A stretch of DNA of 64,000 nt. Origin: Nitrosomonadales bacterium. GTDB taxonomy: Bacteria > Pseudomonadota > Gammaproteobacteria > Burkholderiales > Gallionellaceae. The stretch covers positions 124,001 through 188,000 of the forward strand of contig JAHFQZ010000001.1 of NCBI GenBank assembly GCA_023259055.1. The letters are read 5' to 3'. Shown here in pieces: positions 1,818-13,878 of this stretch. Made by a program: the position numbers and the translations under genes. The notes under the pieces are model-generated. The model ran no database searches and was not told the DNA's origin. It saw only the letters and a list, made by a program, of their open reading frames with translations. The first letter of the stretch is position 1; each line of letters starts with the position of its first letter.

Positions 1818-3668
1818 ATGAGCAATACAGCCGCACCAGTACCCGAATCAAACACCACTTCGGCGCCGGCCAGAAACCTCAAGTCTCGCCTTGCCAATAT
1901 TTCGATGGGCATATGGGGCTTCTACTTCATTGCTAAATTGGCCCTGTACTGGAAACAGCTGATTGGCTTCCACACATTGGCAAACCTTGCATTTGCTGCT
2001 TTCATATTGTTTCCGGTAAAGCATGTGATCTGGCGCAGAGTAAAGCAGGTGGCAATCGCCCTGAGTGCATTGGCTTTGCTCTATTACGATTCCTGGCTGC
2101 CCCCGATCGGCCGTGTATTGTCTCAAGCCTCGCTGGTATCGAGTTTCAGCCCTGCCTATCTGATTGAATTAGCCGGACGGTTTATCAGCCCTCCCATTGT
2201 CGCTTTATTAGCCGCGGCTGGAGCTGCTTACTGGCTTGTTTCACGCTGGGTGCGGCTGGATACGATAGTTGTCGCCGTAATGATGGCGGTGCCTCTGGTA
2301 GCTTATTTCAAGAGTCCTGTGCCGCGCACAGTTGACCAAACAAAACAGTTCGCACAGTTTGAAGAGAATGGACAGACCGGGCTGCCCATTCAGACGATTC
2401 AACCAGCCCTGCCCGCTCAACCGGCCCAGCCCGTTCAACCAACTCTGCACGCTCAGTCAGCCATCCAAAAACAGGCTGCGCTACCTGACAAGGCCACCCA
2501 GAACACACTTCCACCTCCCCCGCTTCCAAGCCAGCATGCACAGAAAAACGAACCGGCTGAAAGCAGCGATACTGCCAATGCCAGCCCGGATTTTGAAAAG
2601 ATATTGCGCGATTTTCTTGCACAAGAAGCAACACGGTCGGTTTCGTTTCCTGCGCCAAAGCCAGGCGCCACTCCATTTGACATTATTTTCATACATGTAT
2701 GTTCGCTATCCTGGGACGACGTGCGGGCCGTAGGATTGGAGCATCATCCGTTATGGCAGCGATTCGATATATTACTAACACGCTTTAACACCGTCTCCGC
2801 TTACAGCGGCCCCGCAGCCATCCGGTTGCTGCGCGCCACCTGCGGACAACCTTCACATGTCAGCTTGTATTCGCCGGCACCCGACAAGTGTTATCTGATG
2901 AACAATCTCAAACGCAGCGGCTTCGAACCCGGTTTGGCGATGAATCATGATGGGCACTTCGATAAGTTTCTTGAAACCGTTCAAGCGCAAGGTCAAATGA
3001 ATGTTCCGCTTATGCCACTTAACGGGGTTACAATTTACCAGCATGCATTTGATGATTCTCCCGTCTATGATGATTTGTCCGTGCTCACTCGCTGGCTGGA
3101 AAATCGCAAAAAATCAAATAGCCAACGCGTCGCGCTGTTTTATAACACGGCAAGTTTGCATGACGGCAACCATTTAACCGGCGCCAATTCAAATCTGAAC
3201 AGTAAAGAGACATTTAAAATGCGCTTGTCCAAGCTGCTGGACGATCTGGAAAAGTTTATGCAAAACATGGAGGCATCGGGAATACGGGCTGTTGTGGCGA
3301 TGGTTCCTGAACATGGCGCGGCATTCCGGGGTGATAAAATGCAAATTGCCGGACTGCGTGAAATCCCCAGCCCATCGATTACGCTGGTTCCAGTAGGGAT
3401 CAAAGCCGTCGGTACCGATTTCCAGCGTGCAGGGCGCACGATGCAAATTGATAAACCCACCAGCTATCTGGCCTTATCGCACATCGTTGCGCGCATGCTG
3501 GAAAAACCACCCAACACCAACAAAACCTTTACCCCGTCCGATTACGTCGCCGACTTGCCAATCACCCCTTTTGTTTCAGAAAACGAAAATGTGATCATGG
3601 TCGGCTACAAGCAACGCTATTACCTGCGCCAGGACACATCCGAGTGGCTTGATTACACCGATTTTTGA
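1818..3668 (+). CDS. bcsG: Cellulose phosphoethanolamine transferase BcsG
   Basis: 616-residue inner-membrane enzyme of the alkaline phosphatase superfamily that transfers phosphoethanolamine from phosphatidylethanolamine to nascent cellulose. The N-terminal half has several membrane segments (residues 30-185). It is followed by a Pro/Gln/Ala-rich linker (about 188-260) that makes the protein longer than the roughly 560-residue E. coli form. The periplasmic domain keeps the active site: Cys295 in HVCSLSWDD, Ser330 in NTVSAYSGPA, and Glu498-His499 in MVPEHG. These align with E. coli Cys243, nucleophile Ser278, Glu442 and His443, and the 35-residue Cys-to-Ser spacing is identical. The start follows a GAGGGA site. 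First gene of the plus-strand bcs group. Confidence 0.93.
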   Translation: MSNTAAPVPESNTTSAPARNLKSRLANISMGIWGFYFIAKLALYWKQLIGFHTLANLAFAAFILFPVKHVIWRRVKQVAIALSALALLYYDSWLPPIGRVLSQASLVSSFSPAYLIELAGRFISPPIVALLAAAGAAYWLVSRWVRLDTIVVAVMMAVPLVAYFKSPVPRTVDQTKQFAQFEENGQTGLPIQTIQPALPAQPAQPVQPTLHAQSAIQKQAALPDKATQNTLPPPPLPSQHAQKNEPAESSDTANASPDFEKILRDFLAQEATRSVSFPAPKPGATPFDIIFIHVCSLSWDDVRAVGLEHHPLWQRFDILLTRFNTVSAYSGPAAIRLLRATCGQPSHVSLYSPAPDKCYLMNNLKRSGFEPGLAMNHDGHFDKFLETVQAQGQMNVPLMPLNGVTIYQHAFDDSPVYDDLSVLTRWLENRKKSNSQRVALFYNTASLHDGNHLTGANSNLNSKETFKMRLSKLLDDLEKFMQNMEASGIRAVVAMVPEHGAAFRGDKMQIAGLREIPSPSITLVPVGIKAVGTDFQRAGRTMQIDKPTSYLALSHIVARMLEKPPNTNKTFTPSDYVADLPITPFVSENENVIMVGYKQRYYLRQDTSEWLDYTDF

Positions 3669-3800: not shown

Positions 3801-5639
3801 ATGAGCGAATTAAAGCAACTTGGTCGTTATGAAATTGTCCGCGTGCTGGGCAGCGGCGCGATGGGCATTGTTTATGAAGGCCTCGACACCAGCCTCAATC
3901 GCCAGGTTGCGATAAAAACTATCATCAAAAGTGCGCTGGTTGACTCGGAACAAGCAGCGGACTATTCCAAAAGATTTATGCGAGAGGCTCAGGCGGTTGC
4001 GAGGCTCAACCATGCCAATATAGTAACTGTTTATGATTTCGGTGAAGAAGGTGATGTCGCGTACTTCGTCATGGAATTTATTCAAGGGAATGAACTAAAG
4101 CAGTTCATCGATAGCGGAGTCCGGTTTTCCCTTTCCAAATCACTGGGCCTGATGATCAAATTGCTGGACGCGCTGGATTACGCCCATTCGCAGGGAATCG
4201 TTCACCGGGATATAAAACCGGCGAATATCATGATCGACAAGGCCGGCAAACTGAAGCTGACAGATTTTGGTGTCGTTAAATTTGTGGACAGTCAGGAAGG
4301 CACGCAAGCCGGCACCATGGTTGGAACGCCGGGCTATATGTCTCCGGAGCAGATTCTTGGCACCAGTGTCAGCCCAAAATCAGATATTTTCGCGGCTGGT
4401 GTCGTCCTGTACCAGCTATTGACCGGCCAGAAACCCTTTACCGGAGACGGCGTATTTGCCATTCAGCAAAAAATCGTTAATGAAGAACCGCCGCCCCCTT
4501 CTTCTATAGACGCAAACCTGCCGCCAATTTTCGATCAGATCATCAGCAAAGCACTGGCGAAGAAACCCGAACAGAGATACGCGCACGCAAGTGAATTTGC
4601 CGAGGATCTCAAGCGTTGTCTTTCGTTGGATGCATCCCAGCAGAGTGAGGCAACCCCAGGCTTGACTGGTGCAGCACAGCAAGCCGATGAGAAAACGGTC
4701 GTAACAGCGAGCGGCTCGCGACAGGCTGCCGAAAAAACAGTAGTGACTGCAAAGGGCTCGCCGCAAGCGATTGAGAAAACCGTCGTTACATCTGCTGTGA
4801 AAAGCGGCGCGGAGGAAGTCAAGGCGGAGGATGTCAGCCTGGACAAGTTCCTCGAAGAACGTGCGAAGCTCGATGCGCTCTTCGCCGACAAGTTCACTAA
4901 ATTTATAACAGTCATGTTCACCGACCTCAAGGGGTCGACAACAATCGCAGAAAATGAGGGTGATCTGGTTAGCCGCATGCTGATCAAGCACCAGAACGAC
5001 ATCGTCATGCCTGCAATCAAGGATAACAACGGGATATTCGTCAAGTCCATTGGCGACGGCACGCTGTCCTATTTCGAAAATGCACTCGATGCGGTGCGAA
5101 CCGCAGTCCGTATTCAGAAGGGTATGGATGCTCTTAACATGTCGAAGATATTCCGGTTTCCGGTATTTATGCGGATTGGTATGCATTCCGGCAAGTGCGT
5201 GGTCGAAGAGCACGATATTGCCGGCGACGTTGTGAACACGGCTTCCCGCTTCGAATCTGCCGCCGATGGCGGAGGAATTCTCTTATCCGAGGATACCTAC
5301 AATGCCCTGTCCGACAAATCGGAGATCTACTGCCGTTTCGTCAAGCAAGTAACGCTCAAGGGCAAGAAAGAACCTTTTAACGCCTATAAGGCTTTCTGGA
5401 ACCCCCAGGAGATCGAACTCGACAAGCAAGGCAAAACTGCTGAGGCAAGCCGGGACGCGGTTGCTGTTCCGGCCAAATCGCCTGGCGGTAAACTGGTCTG
5501 GGGGATAGCCGTGGCGGTAATTATCCTGCTGCTGGTCTTCGCCACAAAGTTTTTCGGATCACCGACAACACATGAAGAAAGCCGGCATTCCATAAGCGAT
5601 TCAACCGCGCCTGCGGATAAATCGGATATTCAGCGCTAG
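3801..5639 (+). CDS. Ser/Thr protein kinase fused to class III adenylate cyclase
   Basis: 612 residues. Residues 9-275 form a PknB-type kinase: glycine loop GSGAMG, Lys39 in VAIKT, HRDIKPAN (Asp137), DFG (Asp155) and a SPEQ activation-segment end. Residues 297-338 contain three 14-residue repeats starting EKTVVT (Glu297, 311, 325). Residues 365-530 form a class III cyclase with metal aspartates Asp375 (FTDLKGST) and Asp419 (SIGDG), the adenine-selecting pair Lys415/Asp472, and transition-state residues Asn479 and Arg483, all intact. A single membrane helix (about 560-585) follows, leaving a short tail beyond the membrane. It lies 132 bases after bcsG and 12 before bcsA, behind a GAGGGAAAT ribosome site. 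Both activities look competent. The link to cellulose synthesis is inferred from position. Confidence 0.9.
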   Translation: MSELKQLGRYEIVRVLGSGAMGIVYEGLDTSLNRQVAIKTIIKSALVDSEQAADYSKRFMREAQAVARLNHANIVTVYDFGEEGDVAYFVMEFIQGNELKQFIDSGVRFSLSKSLGLMIKLLDALDYAHSQGIVHRDIKPANIMIDKAGKLKLTDFGVVKFVDSQEGTQAGTMVGTPGYMSPEQILGTSVSPKSDIFAAGVVLYQLLTGQKPFTGDGVFAIQQKIVNEEPPPPSSIDANLPPIFDQIISKALAKKPEQRYAHASEFAEDLKRCLSLDASQQSEATPGLTGAAQQADEKTVVTASGSRQAAEKTVVTAKGSPQAIEKTVVTSAVKSGAEEVKAEDVSLDKFLEERAKLDALFADKFTKFITVMFTDLKGSTTIAENEGDLVSRMLIKHQNDIVMPAIKDNNGIFVKSIGDGTLSYFENALDAVRTAVRIQKGMDALNMSKIFRFPVFMRIGMHSGKCVVEEHDIAGDVVNTASRFESAADGGGILLSEDTYNALSDKSEIYCRFVKQVTLKGKKEPFNAYKAFWNPQEIELDKQGKTAEASRDAVAVPAKSPGGKLVWGIAVAVIILLLVFATKFFGSPTTHEESRHSISDSTAPADKSDIQR

Positions 5640-5651
5640 CATCCCGCCACA

Positions 5652-8333
5652 ATGTCCGCGACATTCACCCAGAAATATTGGCCGAGCAACCGTATGTGGC
5701 AGCTCGCCCTGTCGGTTCTGATTGCCGGTGCGCTGGTTTATCTGATACGTTATTCCTCAATTTATTTTGATCATCCTAACCAGATTGTTCTCGGGTGGGG
5801 CTGTCTGGCATGCATGTTTCTGATGTACAAACTGAAAATTACCCGGCAACAGCCCTGGCGCATGATCTTTATCGTGCTGGCCTCATTTGTCGCGTTGCGT
5901 TACATCATGTGGCGCACGTTCGATACGATGATATACACGGGCGCGCTCGATTTTTTTGGAATGTCGCTGCTTCTCGTAGCCGAGATATATGCATGCACCC
6001 TTTTATTTCTTGGCTTGTTCATTAATACCTGGCCACTGGAAAGAGGGGCTTTCGCGCTTCCTGACGACACAAACCTCTTGCCCACCGTCGATATTTTAAT
6101 TCCCACATATAACGAGTCTGATGAAATCATCCGGATAACCGCCACGGCCGCTATTCAGGTTGAGTACCCCAAAGAGAAAGTAAAAATCTATCTGCTCGAC
6201 GATGGGGGCACGCTTGCTAAACGCAATCACCCGGAAGCTGGCTCGGCCGCTTGGGATAGACATTACCGGTTGCGGCAAATGGCCGAAGATCTCGGTATCG
6301 GCTATATCACACGGGAAACAAACCAGCAGGCGAAGGCCGGTAACGTCAACCATGCTCTGAATAATACCGACGGGGATGTGGTACTGATACTGGATTGCGA
6401 CCATGTGCCCACCCGTGACATTTTAAAAAACACCATAGGGCATTTTGTTTCCGATGAAAATTTGTTTCTGGTGCAGACACCGCATTTCTTCATCAACTCA
6501 AGCCCGGTGGAAAAGAATCTTGATGGTCTCGCCAATCCATCGGGGGAAAACGACATGTTTTACCGCAGGATGCATCCGGCGATGGATTTCTGGAATTCAA
6601 GCTATTTTTGCGGCTCTGCCGCATTGTTGCGTCGCAAATTCCTGATGGAGGTTGGGGGTGTTTGCGGCACCACCATTACCGAGGATGCCGAAACGTCATA
6701 TAACTTGCACAGCAAGGGCTATAACAGCGTCTACGTCGACAGGCCGATGATTTGCGGATTGTCCCCGGAGTCATACGACGATTACGTTATCCAGCGCTCG
6801 CGCTGGGCGCAGGGCATGACGCAAATGCTGCTGCTCGACAACCCTCTGCTCTCGAACAAATTATCCATACCACAGCGCCTTGCTTACTTTAATTCATGTG
6901 TGTTCTGGTTGTTCGGCTTTGCGCGCATCATGTATTTCATTGCACCAGCCGCTTTTCTGATTCTGGGAATAAATACATACAACGCTTCCTGGCTGCAAGT
7001 CATGGCTTTTTCAATTCCGTTTTTGCTGAGCACTTTTGTGGTGATGGATTTTTTGTATGGAGGAACCCGCCAGCCATTTTTCTCCGAAATCTATGAATGT
7101 GTGCAGGCGATGTTCCTGCTGCCGGCTGTCATTTCCGTGCTGTTGAATCCCCGCAAGCCATCATTCAAGGTAACGCCGAAAGGCAACATTAATGACAGCG
7201 ATTATCTCAGCCCTTTGTCAGCGCCGTTTTTCGCCATTATATTAATCAATTTAACTGCATTGGCACTATCCATCAACAGGTGGTTTGACGACCCCATCAT
7301 GCGCGACGTGCTCCTTGTTACCGGTGTTTGGTGCGTATACAACCTTTATCTGGCGCTGATATCTCTGGGCGCATTCTGGGAACGCAAACAAATACGAAAA
7401 TTCCATCGCATCCATGCAACCGGCCCTGTCACCGTAAATTTCCCCCGTATGAACACATCTGCCATTGGCAAAATATGCGATGTTTCACTGACAGGTATCG
7501 GTTTCGAGATCGACCTGCCCTTCACGCCAATAGAACAGGAGTTTGCTACGCTTGAAGTCAAAGACAGCTATGGGCAGGAGTACAAGTTCGAGTGCAAAAT
7601 ACATCACGCCTTCAAACGTCGCGGAGGATATTTTTGCGGCAGTGAATTCGTTGTCAGTCTGACCTCTTATTCCAGTGTGGTCGGCTTTGTCTTTGGAGAC
7701 AGCCAGCGATGGGTAGACAATTGGGAACGTAAAACGGAAACCAGGGGAACCTTTCGCATGCTGCTGCGCTTCTTGGCTATGGGCATCAAGGCAATCAGGG
7801 TGGGGTCCTATTCGTTTTTGAAGCAGTTACTGGTACGGTCATGGAAGTTCACGGCGATCTGCCTCACCACCCCGATTGTACGTGATACGATTTTGGCTAT
7901 CGGCAGCTGGCTAGCCTATCGTTTATATTTTTCCGTAGTGACGCTGTTTGAGTTATTGGAAAGAGGAAGAATACGCAAATTCCGGCGCATTGACGCAACC
8001 GGCAATGCTACCGTCTATTTCCCCCGTCTGAATGCCACGCTGCAAGGACAGGTAACGGACATTTCCCTTACCGGGATCGGCGTCATGGTTACGCCCCCAT
8101 TCACGTTAAAAGACCGGGAGTCCATTGTAATCAGCACAAAAGGCGGCGATGGCCAGGAATATCGCTTCGAATGCACACTGTGGCGCGCTATCAAGCGTGA
8201 TGGAAAATTCCTGTTCGGAACCGAGTTTGTCATGGATATGTATGCCTATCCGAAAATCGTCAAGTTCGTGTACGGCAGCAACACGAAAATGCTGCGCTAC
8301 ATATTGACACCCAAACAAATTTTTGCAACCTAA
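5652..8333 (+). CDS. bcsA: Cellulose synthase catalytic subunit BcsA with two PilZ modules
   Basis: 893-residue family 2 processive glycosyltransferase that polymerises UDP-glucose and extrudes glucan through its own membrane channel. Catalytic motifs are present: LLDDGG, DCD (Asp248/Asp250), TED (343-345) and QRSRW (381-385). A PilZ domain follows with RKFHR (582-586) and DVSLTG (from Asp610). Then the whole unit from residue 548, membrane helix plus PilZ, is repeated from residue 741 with RKFRR (775-779) and DISLTG (from Asp803), at an offset of exactly 193 residues. Both copies keep the RxxxR and DxSxxG residues that bind c-di-GMP. The ordinary enzyme has one such domain. It overlaps no neighbour and is followed at once by bcsB. 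Confidence 0.95.
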   Translation: MSATFTQKYWPSNRMWQLALSVLIAGALVYLIRYSSIYFDHPNQIVLGWGCLACMFLMYKLKITRQQPWRMIFIVLASFVALRYIMWRTFDTMIYTGALDFFGMSLLLVAEIYACTLLFLGLFINTWPLERGAFALPDDTNLLPTVDILIPTYNESDEIIRITATAAIQVEYPKEKVKIYLLDDGGTLAKRNHPEAGSAAWDRHYRLRQMAEDLGIGYITRETNQQAKAGNVNHALNNTDGDVVLILDCDHVPTRDILKNTIGHFVSDENLFLVQTPHFFINSSPVEKNLDGLANPSGENDMFYRRMHPAMDFWNSSYFCGSAALLRRKFLMEVGGVCGTTITEDAETSYNLHSKGYNSVYVDRPMICGLSPESYDDYVIQRSRWAQGMTQMLLLDNPLLSNKLSIPQRLAYFNSCVFWLFGFARIMYFIAPAAFLILGINTYNASWLQVMAFSIPFLLSTFVVMDFLYGGTRQPFFSEIYECVQAMFLLPAVISVLLNPRKPSFKVTPKGNINDSDYLSPLSAPFFAIILINLTALALSINRWFDDPIMRDVLLVTGVWCVYNLYLALISLGAFWERKQIRKFHRIHATGPVTVNFPRMNTSAIGKICDVSLTGIGFEIDLPFTPIEQEFATLEVKDSYGQEYKFECKIHHAFKRRGGYFCGSEFVVSLTSYSSVVGFVFGDSQRWVDNWERKTETRGTFRMLLRFLAMGIKAIRVGSYSFLKQLLVRSWKFTAICLTTPIVRDTILAIGSWLAYRLYFSVVTLFELLERGRIRKFRRIDATGNATVYFPRLNATLQGQVTDISLTGIGVMVTPPFTLKDRESIVISTKGGDGQEYRFECTLWRAIKRDGKFLFGTEFVMDMYAYPKIVKFVYGSNTKMLRYILTPKQIFAT

Positions 8334-8352
8334 AGTACCAATGGAGTTTTAT

Positions 8353-10512
8353 ATGTCGATCATGAAAAAGCTTGCAATCACATTCCTGCCTGCCTTGTGC
8401 TTCATTGCCGCTGCCCGCGCTGAAACTATCACTCTGCCATTGCAGAAGTTCACTGCATTGTCCAGCATGGAGATGCGCTGCACGAGTGGCACGCAGAGCG
8501 TGTCTATCCCCGTCCCTGACAGGTGGAAAATACGCAAGGCAGTTCTTTCCCTGCGTTATACGGTTTCGAACAATGTGCTTGGCGATCTCTCGCAGATGAC
8601 AGTCAGAATTAATGACGAGCCGATAGCGCAAACCAAGCTGAACCAGCAGAACCCAAGCGCATTGACCGACATCCAGATTCCCGTTACGCACTTGAAGCCG
8701 GGGTACAACACGCTTGATTTCGATGTGGTGCAGCATTATTTGCGCGGCCAATGCGAGCTCCCCTGCGGACCCGATTTGTGGACCAACATCAGCCTGATGG
8801 ATTCTACTTTGCAGATTGAATACGATTTAAAGCCGCTTCCGCTAAAGCTGGGAGAAGTCACCGGTTTGATCTTTGATGCCAAGCAATTCCCTGAGGCCGC
8901 CGTCAATATCGTTACCGAAAATACGAATCGAGACTCTGTAACCCTGGCAGCTATCGTAGCTTCGGGTATCGCCCGGCGCTTTGATTACCGCAAGGTCAAG
9001 TTCGGTTTTTCCAATCAGATAAAACAGGGCATGGACAATGTGCTGATCGGTTCTGAACAGTTTGCCAACAGCTTGGGATCATCGAACGGACAACCATCTG
9101 TTTCATCCGATGCGGGTCTATTGAGAATCTCGCATTTGCCAAACAACGCTGGCGGGGTAGATGACAAGCACGCCTTGCTGGTCATCACCGGTGAAAAATC
9201 GGCAGCGCTCAAAGTGGTTGCCGAAACGCTGGCCAGCATGACGTTGCCTTATCCCGGCACGGGGGAGATGAGCTCCTATGGGTTCAATATGTCGGACATC
9301 AGCATGTACAGCGGGCGTCAGACTATTACTGCGGACAAAACATATGATTTCAAAACGCTGAATCAATCGACGTATTCCTTCGAAGGTTTAAACCCCAATC
9401 CAATTATCCTGTCTTTTCGCCTTCCTCCGGACTTTTTGATCAAACAGAACCAATATGCAAAACTTTCGATAAACCTGTCTTATGGCGCCGGATTGCGGCC
9501 GGGGTCAGGGATCAACGTTGTGGTTAACGACAAACCTTTGCGTGCCATCCAGCTGGATGCGGTAGGCGGCAGTTATGTCGATGGATACAAAGTCGACATT
9601 CCGACCTATTTATTCAAACCGGGCGCAAACACGATCAGTTTCGCACCATCCTTCAATATGCAGGGACTTCAGTTGTGCGATGCAGTGCGCACAGACGGAT
9701 TGTTCGCAACCATTTATGAGAATTCAACGCTGTATTTCCCGAATATGCCGCATTTTGTCGAGCTGCCTAAAGTCGAACTGTTTGCACTCAACGGTTTCCC
9801 GTTCACCCGCTGGCCTGATGGTTTCGAGACCATTATTTATTTGCCGGAGCAGGATACCGCATCGATTGAAACCGCACTCAACGTGGCAGGTATGATCACC
9901 CAGAAAAATGGTTTCCCGCTTTTCAGCACCCAGGTCAGATTCGATGAACCCAAGGGCTGGAACGGCGAGCTTCTCGTGATCGGCAAAGCATCGTCTATTC
10001 CCAAATCCATTATGGATGCGGCACCAATGGGATTTACCGGCATTACCAATGTGCCTTATCCGGTTTCAAGAGGTTGGGACAGCGAGGCGGCAATTTCCAA
10101 CAGCAAGCAACAAAGCGGCTTGGGGCACGGTATCGGCGCGGTAATGGAATTCGAATCCGTATACAAGAAAGGGCGTACTATAATATTGCTGACAGCAGAA
10201 AGCGGTGAAGATCTTATGGTGCTAGGAGATGCAGTACTTGATCCGAATGTTCAGGGAAGCATGAAAGGAGATGCTGCCCTCATCGAACTGACTTCACCAA
10301 AATACAAAGTGACCTCCATGGCGGTGGGGAAAAAATACACCACGGGAGACAAAGGTGACGTTTCCTTTATCGACTCTTTCCTCCACGAATACCTTTATGC
10401 ATTCTATGGCCTGGTTGTCGTCCTCATCATTGCCTTGGCCATGTTTGGTTATAGGGGGCTGCGCCGCTATCGAGCAAAACGCGTGGAAGGAGAGCAGAAG
10501 CAACCTGCTTAG
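8353..10512 (+). CDS. bcsB: Cellulose synthase periplasmic subunit BcsB
   Basis: 719-residue partner of BcsA that guides glucan across the periplasm. The start is set at 8353 because TGGAG lies six bases upstream and the protein then begins MSIMKKLAITF, a good signal peptide cleaved near AAARA. A longer frame from 8323 overlaps bcsA and has no ribosome site. The body has the BcsB layout of two carbohydrate-binding/flavodoxin-like repeats. A single C-terminal membrane helix (YGLVVVLIIALAMFGY) is followed by a basic cytoplasmic tail, which is how BcsB docks on BcsA. It follows bcsA after 19 bases. Confidence 0.93.
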   Translation: MSIMKKLAITFLPALCFIAAARAETITLPLQKFTALSSMEMRCTSGTQSVSIPVPDRWKIRKAVLSLRYTVSNNVLGDLSQMTVRINDEPIAQTKLNQQNPSALTDIQIPVTHLKPGYNTLDFDVVQHYLRGQCELPCGPDLWTNISLMDSTLQIEYDLKPLPLKLGEVTGLIFDAKQFPEAAVNIVTENTNRDSVTLAAIVASGIARRFDYRKVKFGFSNQIKQGMDNVLIGSEQFANSLGSSNGQPSVSSDAGLLRISHLPNNAGGVDDKHALLVITGEKSAALKVVAETLASMTLPYPGTGEMSSYGFNMSDISMYSGRQTITADKTYDFKTLNQSTYSFEGLNPNPIILSFRLPPDFLIKQNQYAKLSINLSYGAGLRPGSGINVVVNDKPLRAIQLDAVGGSYVDGYKVDIPTYLFKPGANTISFAPSFNMQGLQLCDAVRTDGLFATIYENSTLYFPNMPHFVELPKVELFALNGFPFTRWPDGFETIIYLPEQDTASIETALNVAGMITQKNGFPLFSTQVRFDEPKGWNGELLVIGKASSIPKSIMDAAPMGFTGITNVPYPVSRGWDSEAAISNSKQQSGLGHGIGAVMEFESVYKKGRTIILLTAESGEDLMVLGDAVLDPNVQGSMKGDAALIELTSPKYKVTSMAVGKKYTTGDKGDVSFIDSFLHEYLYAFYGLVVVLIIALAMFGYRGLRRYRAKRVEGEQKQPA

Positions 10513-10538: not shown

Positions 10539-10566
10539 CCAGGCACCAATGCAAATGGGTGCCTGG
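10539..10566 (+). terminator. Hairpin after bcsB
   Basis: CCAGGCACC (10539-10547) pairs perfectly with GGTGCCTGG (10558-10566) over a 10-base loop. No U tract follows, so it may be an attenuator or mRNA stabiliser rather than a full terminator. It covers an upstream possible start codon (10549) of the next gene and argues for the later start at 10624. Confidence 0.45.
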
Positions 10567-10623
10567 TATAAGCGCTACGAAATCGCTATTTGTAATGCAT
10601 TATTGGATTTATATCTGCCAAGC

Positions 10624-13600
10624 ATGAACAACCTGTTTCGCCCAGCCATCTCGCTGATGAACAAACTGCGCTACCCCCACAAACTCATGGTGCTGGGGCT
10701 GATTTATCTCATCGCGGTTACGGTGTTGTTCTACAGCCTCTATACGATTCTTTCCCGGAATATTTACAGCTCGCGACGCCAACTGGAAGGCCTTGCTCTG
10801 ATCAAGCCGGTTTCCAGAACAATGCAGCTCATGCAGCAACATCGCGGGCTGGAGTTGGGTTTGATTGACGGCAACGAATCGATGCGAAAGGCACACAATG
10901 CCAAGGAAAACGATATAGATGCAGCTCTTGACGAGCTGGAACGGCAACTGCCTCCGGATTTATCTTCAGGCGAAGAGTGGAAAAATATCAAAACTCACTG
11001 GGAAGGCCTGCGTGAAGGCAGGTTTACCGGGACATCGGAAGAAAGTTTTGCCACGCATACCGAATTGATCAACCGGTTGCAGATATTCATGGTGAGCATT
11101 GCCGATCTGCGCGGCCTGACTCTTGAGACTGATATCGGCATATATTATTCAATTGAGACTGCCATCAGCGCGCTGCCGAGAGCGCTGGAAAGAATGGGGC
11201 AAATACGCGCTTATGGCACTGGTATCCTGGCATCGAATCAGGCTTCAGGTCTTCAGCAGCACAAGATACTTGAGTTGATCACCGAGCTCAGGAACACGAC
11301 CCACCTACTCGTCATCAACCTGAATAAGACCGGCCAATACAATCCTGGAATGCAGGATCGACTATCCCATGTATCCGGGGATATTGACAAATTGGAACAG
11401 CAAATTACCGGCATATTAATCTCAAACGTTCTAACCAAAAATTTTTTGGTTTCCTCAGAAAAATTTTACCTGTTAACTACCGAGGTAATCGACGAAGGTT
11501 ACGAGCAGCTGTATCAGACCTTGTTGCCAACGACCGAGGTATTGATCAAAGCACGCATCCAGCGCGAAAAGAACGTACTGTTCGTTATCGGCGGAATCGC
11601 ATTGCTGTTATTGCTGGCAGCCTGCTACTTAATCATCGGCGGGTACTATTCGATGATCGACGGCATCCGATCGCTTGTTCGTTCGGCGCAAAATTTTGCC
11701 CGAGGTGACATGAGCGAGCGCGTCCGTCTGGATTCGCGCGATGAGCTCAGGCAGGTTGGCGACAGCTTCAATGAAATGGCCGACGGATTCAACTCGCTAC
11801 TGATAGCCCGTCTCGAGGGCAAGGAACGTTTGTTGTCCATCGTTAACACCTCGCTGGATGCATTGATTCAGATGGACTCCAATGGTCTTATCACCGGCTG
11901 GAATAATCAGGCCCAAATGTATTTTGGCTGGGCCTATGAGGAAGCTGTCGGCCGCGAACTGAGCAAAACGATCATCCCGCCCCGCTACCGCGAGGCCCAC
12001 AATCGGGGCTTTAAACGCTATTTGGCCTCGGGTGAAGGTCTTGTTCTTGATACGCGCCTCGAAACGACCGGGTTGCACCGCGACGGCCATGAGTTTGCGA
12101 TTGAAATGTCGGTGTCCGCAATCAGGACAGCGGGTGCGGTTGAATTCAACGCTTTCATCCGCGACATCACCGATCGCAAGCAGTCTGAAAACTCCTTGCG
12201 CAAACTTTCTCAAGCCGTGGAACAAAGCCACAGCTCGATTTTCATTACCGACCTGGATGCGAATATCGAATACGCCAATGACGCCTTTTTAAAAACGACC
12301 GGCTACAGTCTTGGCGAGGTCATCGGGAAAAATCCGCGTCTGTTGGGTTCCGGTAAAACACCCAAGGCAATCTATGCCGACATGTGGGCAAAAATAACCA
12401 GGGGTGAAATATGGGAAGGCGAACTCATCAACCGGCGCAAGGACCGCAGTGAATATACCGATTCGACGAAAATATCCCCGTTGCGGCAACCGGATGGAAG
12501 CATCACCCATTATCTGGCGCTCAAGGAAGACATCACCCATCGCAAACTGGCGGAAGAAGAAATCCAGCAATTGGCCTTTTTCGATCCGCTCACCAAGCTG
12601 CCCAACCGCCGGCTGCTGATGGACCGGCTGCAACAGGCGCTGGCTGCCACAACCCGTGGCGGAGAACATAGGGCGCTGTTATTCATCGATCTGGACAATT
12701 TCAAAACACTCAACGACAGCCTCGGTCATGGCATAGGCGACCTGTTGCTCCGGCAAGTCGCACAGCGGCTTACCGGGTGCGTACGCGAAGGCGATACCGT
12801 ATCGCGTCTGGGTGGAGATGAGTTCGTGGTGATGCTGGGAAACCTGAGCGAAAATTTCCAGGAAGCCGCCTTCCAGAGCGAGGCCATTGGCGAAAAGATC
12901 ATTGCCTCCCTCAATCAGCCTTACCTGCTTGCCGGCCACGATTGCCACAGCACCCCGAGCATCGGCATCACGCTGTTTGCCGATCATCAATCAACCGCCG
13001 AAGAAGTAATGAAGCGGGCAGACATCTCAATGTATCAGGCCAAGAAGGACGGGCGCAACACGATACGTTTTTATGACCCGGCCGTGCAGGCGGCGGTCAC
13101 CGCGCGTGCTGCATTGGAGACAGATTTGCGCCATGCGCTGGAAAACAGTCAATTCCAGCTTTATTACCAGGTGCAGGTAGACGAAATAAATCAGGCTATC
13201 GGCGCAGAAGCACTGTTGCGCTGGGAGCATCCGAAAATTGGCATGGTGCCGCCGATGCAGTTCATCCCGCTGGCTGAAGAAACCGGACTCATTCTGCCAA
13301 TCGGTAAATGGATATTGGAAACAGCCTGCAAACAAATCAAAAAATGGGAGTCAAGCCCTCACACACGCAATCTGCAGCTTGCGGTCAATATCAGCGCAAG
13401 GCAATTCCACCAGGCCGGTTTCGTTGCGCAAGTATGCGAAATCATCAAACAAACCACTATCAATCCAGCTCACCTCGAGCTTGAATTGACCGAAAGCATG
13501 GTACTCAGCGATATTGCCGACACAATTGACAAGATGCAAGCACTGAGAAAAATTGGGGTGCGTTTTTCCCTGGATGATTTTGGCACAGGGTATTCATCAC

Positions 13601-13878
13601 TGTCTTATCTGACCCGGCTTCCGCTCAATCAGTTGAAGATAGACCAGTCATTCGTGCGCAACATCGGCACAAAACATACTGATGCGGTGATTGTTCAAAC
13701 CATTGTCGGCATGGCCAACAATCTGGGCATGGAGGTAATTGCAGAAGGCGTGGAAACACAGTCCCAACGAGATTTCCTTCAGGACATCGGATGCCTGCTC
13801 TTTCAGGGATTCTTATTCAGCAAACCGGTGCCCATGGAAGAGTTTGAGAAAAAACTTATGGCATCTTTTACAAAATAA
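10624..13878 (+). CDS. HAMP-PAS-PAS-GGDEF-EAL membrane c-di-GMP enzyme
   Basis: About 1084 residues from the chosen start (MNNLFRPAISLMNKL); the frame is open from 10549, but that start lies in a hairpin. Membrane helices near residues 23-45 and 319-342 flank a helical periplasmic sensor. A HAMP, two PAS domains and a GGDEF domain follow, with an intact GGDEF signature (from Gly730) and an RxxD product-inhibition site five residues before it (REGD). The EAL domain has EALLRW (Glu862), NISARQF, ELTES, DDFGTGYSSL, KIDQSF and AEGVET, so both synthase and phosphodiesterase residues are kept. It follows bcsB and probably sets the c-di-GMP level read by the two BcsA PilZ domains (inference). Confidence 0.92.
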   Translation: MNNLFRPAISLMNKLRYPHKLMVLGLIYLIAVTVLFYSLYTILSRNIYSSRRQLEGLALIKPVSRTMQLMQQHRGLELGLIDGNESMRKAHNAKENDIDAALDELERQLPPDLSSGEEWKNIKTHWEGLREGRFTGTSEESFATHTELINRLQIFMVSIADLRGLTLETDIGIYYSIETAISALPRALERMGQIRAYGTGILASNQASGLQQHKILELITELRNTTHLLVINLNKTGQYNPGMQDRLSHVSGDIDKLEQQITGILISNVLTKNFLVSSEKFYLLTTEVIDEGYEQLYQTLLPTTEVLIKARIQREKNVLFVIGGIALLLLLAACYLIIGGYYSMIDGIRSLVRSAQNFARGDMSERVRLDSRDELRQVGDSFNEMADGFNSLLIARLEGKERLLSIVNTSLDALIQMDSNGLITGWNNQAQMYFGWAYEEAVGRELSKTIIPPRYREAHNRGFKRYLASGEGLVLDTRLETTGLHRDGHEFAIEMSVSAIRTAGAVEFNAFIRDITDRKQSENSLRKLSQAVEQSHSSIFITDLDANIEYANDAFLKTTGYSLGEVIGKNPRLLGSGKTPKAIYADMWAKITRGEIWEGELINRRKDRSEYTDSTKISPLRQPDGSITHYLALKEDITHRKLAEEEIQQLAFFDPLTKLPNRRLLMDRLQQALAATTRGGEHRALLFIDLDNFKTLNDSLGHGIGDLLLRQVAQRLTGCVREGDTVSRLGGDEFVVMLGNLSENFQEAAFQSEAIGEKIIASLNQPYLLAGHDCHSTPSIGITLFADHQSTAEEVMKRADISMYQAKKDGRNTIRFYDPAVQAAVTARAALETDLRHALENSQFQLYYQVQVDEINQAIGAEALLRWEHPKIGMVPPMQFIPLAEETGLILPIGKWILETACKQIKKWESSPHTRNLQLAVNISARQFHQAGFVAQVCEIIKQTTINPAHLELELTESMVLSDIADTIDKMQALRKIGVRFSLDDFGTGYSSLSYLTRLPLNQLKIDQSFVRNIGTKHTDAVIVQTIVGMANNLGMEVIAEGVETQSQRDFLQDIGCLLFQGFLFSKPVPMEEFEKKLMASFTK

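Follow-up and report, generated by a model that had tools for sequence, protein, structure and literature searches.

A gene in which a Hanks-type serine/threonine kinase is fused to a class III nucleotidyl cyclase has been identified in the cellulose (bcs) gene cluster of the window -- the whole 64,000-nucleotide stretch analysed here, contig C4:124001-188000 of a 2.6-Mb genome (G000) -- and sequence comparison with its relatives indicates that it is the cyclase whose association with the bcs genes is conserved, the kinase being optional. Bacterial cellulose synthesis is a textbook case of control by c-di-GMP. The gene probably, if with ample room for doubt, encodes a tail-anchored class III adenylate cyclase associated with the cellulose system, carrying an N-terminal Hanks kinase in the window's lineage, through which cAMP would tune cellulose output.

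The fusion gene lies on the plus strand at 3801-5639, as an ORF of 612 amino acids with an ATG start that matches Pfam Pkinase and Guanylate_cyc. The kinase domain occupies residues 10-261 (3828-4583; PF00069, E 2e-60, 204.9 bits) and has intact catalytic residues: the residue table finds G17, K39, E62, HRD 135-137, K139, N142, DFG 155-157, E183 and D195 all kept, so that the Gly loop, VAIK Lys, HRD, DFG and APE-type Glu of a Hanks-type Ser/Thr kinase are all present. It is followed by a linker with three EKTVVT repeats at 14-residue spacing (4689-4790), a self-similarity equalled in none of 500 shuffles; their threonines are possible phosphorylation sites. The cyclase domain, residues 368-524 (4902-5372), scores 63.5 bits against the PF00211 cut-off of 21.9 (E 2.4e-17), and its six catalytic and specificity residues, D375, K415, D419, D472, N479 and R483, spell out an intact D-K-D-D-N-R. 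D375, D419, N479 and R483 are those of a class III cyclase; we take the two aspartates to be the metal ligands, and N479 and R483 the transition-state residues. K415 and D472 make up an adenylate-type specificity pair, which presumably binds the purine and confers specificity for ATP. A helix at residues 562-585 (5484-5555), seen in the AlphaFold model and by hydropathy (best 19-residue mean 2.53), is predicted to be a membrane anchor, and behind it comes a 27-residue tail (5556-5636) with a conserved R596, common to fused and unfused relatives.

The AlphaFold model, built on a 41-row alignment, has confident kinase and cyclase domains, with a mean pLDDT of 81.8 and a pTM of 0.53 for the model and the relative placement of the domains not settled by it; residues 288-342 of the linker (pLDDT under 50) and the tail are predicted to be disordered. 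Among the structures in the PDB, the model's fold is matched best by PknB kinase domains of M. tuberculosis, at 37-38% identity, while the cyclase half matches by sequence the solved class III cyclases Ma1120 (4wp9, E 3e-16) and CyaB (3r5g, E 4e-13). An intact kinase and an intact cyclase on one chain had been proposed by an earlier, sequence-only reading of this DNA, and Pfam and the residue tables confirm it; the membrane anchoring also proposed there holds as a prediction.

The same reading had placed the fusion between bcsG and bcsA, and the Pfam and NCBIfam matches of the neighbours agree. The gene begins 132 nt past bcsG (1818-3668; CBP_BcsG, E 1.7e-193) and ends 12 nt ahead of bcsA (5652-8333; CelA, 810 bits, cut-off 699), which is followed by bcsB (8323-10512, start codon uncertain; BcsB, E 2.3e-109) and a HAMP-PAS-GGDEF-EAL gene (10549-13878; Pfam), all on the plus strand. 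On the minus strand lie the divergent GH8 gene bcsZ (124-1272; Glyco_hydro_8, E 4e-67) and the first codons of bcsC (1-145), the remainder of which is beyond the window, at G000:C4:121332-124145 (BCSC_C, 9.2e-106 on L195 7335-10145). Two C-terminal PilZ stretches were found by Pfam in the window's BcsA and likewise two in L076 and L084, with one in L103, L093 and L100. The further claim that the fusion sits inside an operon stands as far as strand and spacing go; the scan of the window gave 11 promoter and 15 terminator sites as against 14.2 and 13.9 in shuffles, no excess, and because of this we infer co-transcription with the bcs genes from strand and spacing. The idea that three signalling chemistries converge here, the third being that of the GGDEF-EAL gene, does not hold as a conserved feature: in the sister operon L076 (BcsA 94% identical) an ABC-F gene comes directly after bcsB, with no GGDEF-EAL gene at L076 5907-6024, and a match to the window's GGDEF-EAL protein is present in only three of 42 bcs-linked loci (L083, L084, L102). 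This gene was accordingly rejected as part of the unit, and its difference between the window and the sister operon is, judging from the two sequences, a recent gain or loss.

To look beyond the family, one genome for each of 84,980 species was scanned with a cyclase profile, neighbours not being considered, and the scan was restricted to loci with one of two short peptide patterns; this gave 70 loci, nearly all from metagenome-assembled genomes. BLAST with the window's proteins divided these into 55 relatives (at least 36% identity) and 15 distant cyclases (25-32%). In 45 of the 55 relatives, from Pseudomonadota, Nitrospirota, Nitrospinota, Elusimicrobiota and Thermodesulfobacteriota, the C-terminus of the cyclase consists of a hydrophobic helix followed by a short tail that bears an R[ST] motif. 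In the surrounding DNA examined, bcsA, bcsB, bcsZ or bcsG was found at 42 of these 45 loci, as opposed to none of the 22 cyclases lacking that end (7 relatives and the 15 distant ones) -- a contrast with a Fisher p of 8e-15, in which relatedness is ignored and the class was defined after the data had been seen. The loci are partly dependent, L087-L089 being near copies and seven coming from genomes of the window's own family. Of the three misses, L099 has no bcs gene in 8.8 kb upstream, with 666 nt examined downstream, where its sisters L094 and L101 have theirs; L115 has none in 6.6 kb upstream, with 40 nt examined downstream; and L109 could be followed on one side, for 9.8 kb without any bcs gene. 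The other ten relatives comprise the seven without the helix-tail end, L129, which is cut off, and the Planctomycetota loci L110 and L112, in which the helix is followed by a variant tail and a GH8 gene lies some 9 kb away, separated from the cyclase by large genes (in L110, Pfam identifies these as TPR/SPOR).

The tail was located by a pattern, R or H and then S or T, so its two motif positions are conserved by construction. Independently of that pattern, the 41-row alignment (41 of 46 rows, with L076, L088, L089, L091 and L126 omitted) shows R596 with a conservation of 90% or more, and 36 of 46 tails have H or D at position +4.

Gene order varies among the 42 bcs-linked loci (ARRANGEMENTS): the cyclase lies ahead of bcsA on the same strand in 24, at distances from overlapping ORFs to 285 nt, is convergent to bcsB within 131 nt in 11, lies between bcsZ and bcsG in three, and is otherwise placed in four (L094, L096, L101, L111). 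The convergent cases mean that the cyclase need not share the bcsA transcript, as had been supposed. Other genes also recur in these neighbourhoods. A GAF-HD protein (Pfam on L082), which we take to be an HD-GYP-type c-di-GMP phosphodiesterase from its appearance, is found near bcs at five loci (L082 1073-2734, L087 16264-17925, L088 13534-15195, L089 13649-15310 and L130 18781-20382); a second cyclase gene, of GAF-PAS-cyclase type (Pfam on L077), shares the bcs locus with the tail-bearing cyclase at L077 1597-3966 and L079 1661-3976; and a 331-aa protein encoded between bcsA and bcsB (L093 9308-10303), for which the L093 copy gave no Pfam or NCBIfam match, recurs in L104 and L105.

Within the window's family, a whole-protein search of 158 genomes returned full fusions, cyclase-only and mostly kinase-only matches, and seven places were read. 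The fusion is ahead of bcsA in G003 and likewise in G039, where most of the kinase is lost at a contig end; in G112, G114 and G115 (the loci L103, L081 and L080) the cyclase alone is directly ahead of bcsA; and in G010 a lone cyclase is flanked by bcsG on one side and by a convergent bcsB-bcsA pair on the other. A search for BcsA in the same 158 genomes found 44 matches, spread over 43 of them. All eight BcsA proteins with at least 54% identity to that of the window have a cyclase in the cluster, seven directly before bcsA and the G010 one after bcsB, though two of the eight cyclases, those of G036 (locus L102) and G112, are degenerate; by comparison, no cyclase was found within 1.5 kb of any of the 22 BcsA genes read among the 36 matches at 43% identity or less. 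Two further BcsA proteins of this lower class are that of G092 and the second one of G036 (30%), which belongs to the same cluster at L102, roughly 1.4 kb away from the cyclase and separated from it by bcsZ. Close to a bcsA and bcsB of another type, G092 (L041 8635-10767) encodes a kinase of the window's lineage on one chain with a divergent cyclase-like domain (PF00211, 23.8 bits).

In the order as a whole the cyclase gene is rare. A profile search of 399 genomes drawn evenly from it (E 1e-40) gave nine matches in eight genomes, seven of them with bcsA or bcsB within 1.5 kb; L191 (G286) is convergent with a BcsC-type gene, and L193 abuts a contig end. The proteins of six of these nine matches had already come up in the species scan, so that, besides the window, L191 and L192 are the only new cases. 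The survey of the neighbourhood had been set beforehand as the check on which the proposal could fall, and conservation was what it found: the linkage to bcs core genes, at 42 of 45 helix-tail loci and with eight of eight close BcsA proteins, is that of an accessory component of bcs cellulose systems.

A mechanism can be proposed in which the cyclase would dimerise at the inner membrane near BcsA and BcsB, held close to the Bcs complex by its helix or by its tail, which would be periplasmic if the helix spans the membrane once, and would there make cAMP locally from ATP. In the fusions, the kinase may phosphorylate threonines in its own linker, at the three EKTVVT repeats, and this could either change cyclase output or recruit a partner. 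The cAMP would then tune cellulose output alongside the control that c-di-GMP exerts on BcsA via PilZ.

A somewhat unlikely but serious alternative is that the cyclase feeds a general cAMP pool, through which a CRP-type regulator or a cNMP-binding Ser/Thr kinase acts on bcs and other genes, its position in the cluster reflecting joint expression. The means for this are at hand in the window's genome, in which 12 cNMP-binding domains and 10 class III cyclase matches were counted, and CRP-linked control of cellulose is known from other bacteria, going by titles and abstracts. One of the 12 domains is at the C-terminus of a Ser/Thr kinase (L152 559-1836, region of G000:C3:73299-73541; Pkinase 4e-52, cNMP_binding 1e-15), which by its domains is possibly a cAMP-responsive kinase and a candidate receptor. 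The window itself speaks against such a regulator acting in cis, with seven CRP-type palindromes where 24.8 are expected (that at 1265-1280 has two mismatches), and CRP-type sites were rejected as a sign of cAMP control in cis since they are not enriched there; moreover, a pool enzyme needs no conserved helix and tail, which are typical of the bcs-linked copies.

Clustering of the neighbours at the 55 loci recovered the core bcs genes and no regular cAMP receptor, other families occurring at seven loci at most. Proteins with cNMP-binding domains were seen near bcs at L082 (two), L097, L100, L118 and L125, a count close to their density in the window's own genome (12 in 2.6 Mb, a rough estimate), so that they are leads only; on both grounds, a regular receptor belonging to the bcs cluster was rejected as a candidate. 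The query set consisted of seven ORFs from that genome, of which L146 and L148 are apparently on the wrong strand and L152 matched through its kinase part, and with three faulty queries among seven the search was far from exhaustive. At L082 (3370-4806 and 5108-6799) and L125 (622-2962) the proteins take the form of a BrkB-cNMP fusion and of HATPase-cNMP-SpoIIE or cNMP-SpoIIE with separate HATPase and STAS, a partner-switching set; they are possible cAMP effectors, with no enrichment seen. Fusions of a cNMP-binding domain with a BrkB-type membrane protein also lie downstream of bcsG at L097 11997-13265 and L100 13957-15210.

It is improbable, though with some observations in its favour, that the protein serves the Bcs complex chiefly as a structural or docking component, its catalytic domains being relics or regulatory. 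Two tail-bearing cyclases that adjoin bcsA, L102 9989-10792 (DLDYNK) and L103 249-1088 (DQDDNH), have changed specificity or catalytic residues and, from these changes, are likely pseudocyclases; catalysis is therefore not always kept at bcs-linked loci, and since both retain the helix and tail, the protein may also have a role that is not catalytic. Together with the pseudokinase of L078, which likewise keeps helix, tail and bcs neighbourhood, they speak for this reading. Against this, the six catalytic and specificity residues are intact in 51 of the 53 readable relatives, and of the eight readable fused kinases, seven have every checked residue in place.

The kinase has a more complicated history than the cyclase. 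It is present in the cyclase ORF of nine of the 55 relatives (L076, L078, L084, L094, L099, L101, L113, L115 and L116), and 46 show none, one of which, L126, is cut N-terminally and cannot be judged; L076 contains just the last 26 kinase residues and was left out of the kinase tree. A quick tree of the eight readable fusions, the window and G092 gave three groups on long branches, and the fused kinases apparently derive from three lineages; its starred, strongly supported branches are, taken alone, compatible with one kinase origin. The fused copies are spread over the cyclase tree, which requires four changes (five without L102, L103 and L128). With quick trees and groups not all named beforehand, AU tests rejected a single clade of all fused cyclases (p 3e-43) and one of the cyclases joined to the window's kinase lineage (p 4e-5). 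One clade of all fused cyclases has accordingly been discarded; a single gain followed by losses is still compatible, and several gains, from the three kinase groups, look likelier than one on the sequences compared. The kinases of the window's lineage nevertheless form one clade, which makes kinase loss or domain exchange plausible there. In L078 the kinase has K changed to R, HRD to HGS and DFG to DFS, and its cyclase groups with the unfused L085, L086 and L091, so that it looks like a case of kinase decay and loss.

Repeated threonine motifs mark the linkers of the window's protein, of L084 and of the Nitrospinota loci L094, L099 and L101, each equalled in none of 500 shuffles, while L115 is moderately repetitive (4 of 500) and L113 unremarkable (104 of 500), the bounds of all of them having been set by eye. 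An FHA domain is a reader of phosphothreonine. Such domains are present in five tail-less relatives (L114, L119, L120, L124 and L127), and kinase genes adjoin the cyclases of L119 and L127; we infer from these sequences that this clade of cyclases takes part in phosphothreonine signalling. The arrangement singled out at the start, a kinase-cyclase fusion beside bcsA, is thus conserved in its cyclase, the kinase being confined to nine of the 55 relatives and degenerate in one.

That the kinase is the main regulator, acting on BcsA, BcsB or other proteins, with the cyclase incidental, is very improbable: kinases have been joined to the helix-tail cyclase in several lineages, and the G092 kinase, which is of the window's lineage and joined to a divergent cyclase-like domain, stands beside a different bcs cluster, both in its favour, yet the 46 relatives with no kinase in the cyclase ORF run counter to it. 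A gene that is a chance passenger near bcs is scarcely credible, being consistent with its absence within 1.5 kb of the 22 other-type family BcsA genes read (of 36) and strongly disfavoured by the contrast of 42 of 45 with 0 of 22 across several phyla while gene order changes.

Class III cyclases, Hanks kinases and fusions between the two are already known. The preferred reading, a tail-anchored adenylate cyclase of the cellulose system, shares its catalytic domain and D-K-D-D-N-R residues with Ma1120 (4wp9) and CyaB (3r5g), and differs from such enzymes in its conserved C-terminal helix, R[ST] tail, bcs linkage and optional N-terminal kinase. The TOMM kinase/cyclase fusion (NCBIfam TIGR03903) also has kinase and then cyclase on one chain, but the 612-aa window protein scores 172.8 bits against that 1267-position model, which has a cut-off of 705.75, and its nearest neighbours are bcs genes instead of a TOMM setting. 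With the PknB/Stk1-type Hanks kinases it has the kinase fold and residues in common; it falls short of PknB_PASTA_kin (NF033483; 354.8 of 450 bits), and it has a cyclase and no PASTA among its Pfam families. Like BcsC, BcsG, BcsZ and other bcs accessory proteins, it is encoded in bcs clusters of several phyla, and we know of no adenylate cyclase among the accessory genes described. No description of one in a bcs cluster was found in the titles and opening lines of abstracts of the papers listed from the mostly open literature, including PMC6416229, PMC2887384 and PMC10333796, nor in those on kinase-cyclase architecture. In the parts of these sources consulted, only a class IV cyclase is reported for Acidithiobacillus (PMC6416229), and the TOMM paper (PMC2887384) mentions a Ser/Thr kinase and not the fusion. 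The suggestion that the regulator is of an undescribed type thus survives, within titles and abstracts, for a cyclase of the cellulose cluster, and not for the kinase/cyclase fusion as such, for which TIGR03903 is a precedent.

More tentatively, it is possible that cellulose synthases in several phyla carry a dedicated, docked adenylate cyclase subunit that would make cAMP beside the c-di-GMP input, with kinases added repeatedly to bring in phosphorylation signals. Unfused copies in Nitrosospira, Nitrosovibrio and Methylobacter records make the cyclase testable without the kinase, and the scattered kinase fusions, pseudokinase included, form a natural series for the study of kinase-cyclase coupling. 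The occurrence of a bcs-linked cyclase in phyla as far apart as Pseudomonadota, Nitrospirota, Nitrospinota and Elusimicrobiota suggests that a second layer of cellulose control in environmental biofilms has been overlooked.
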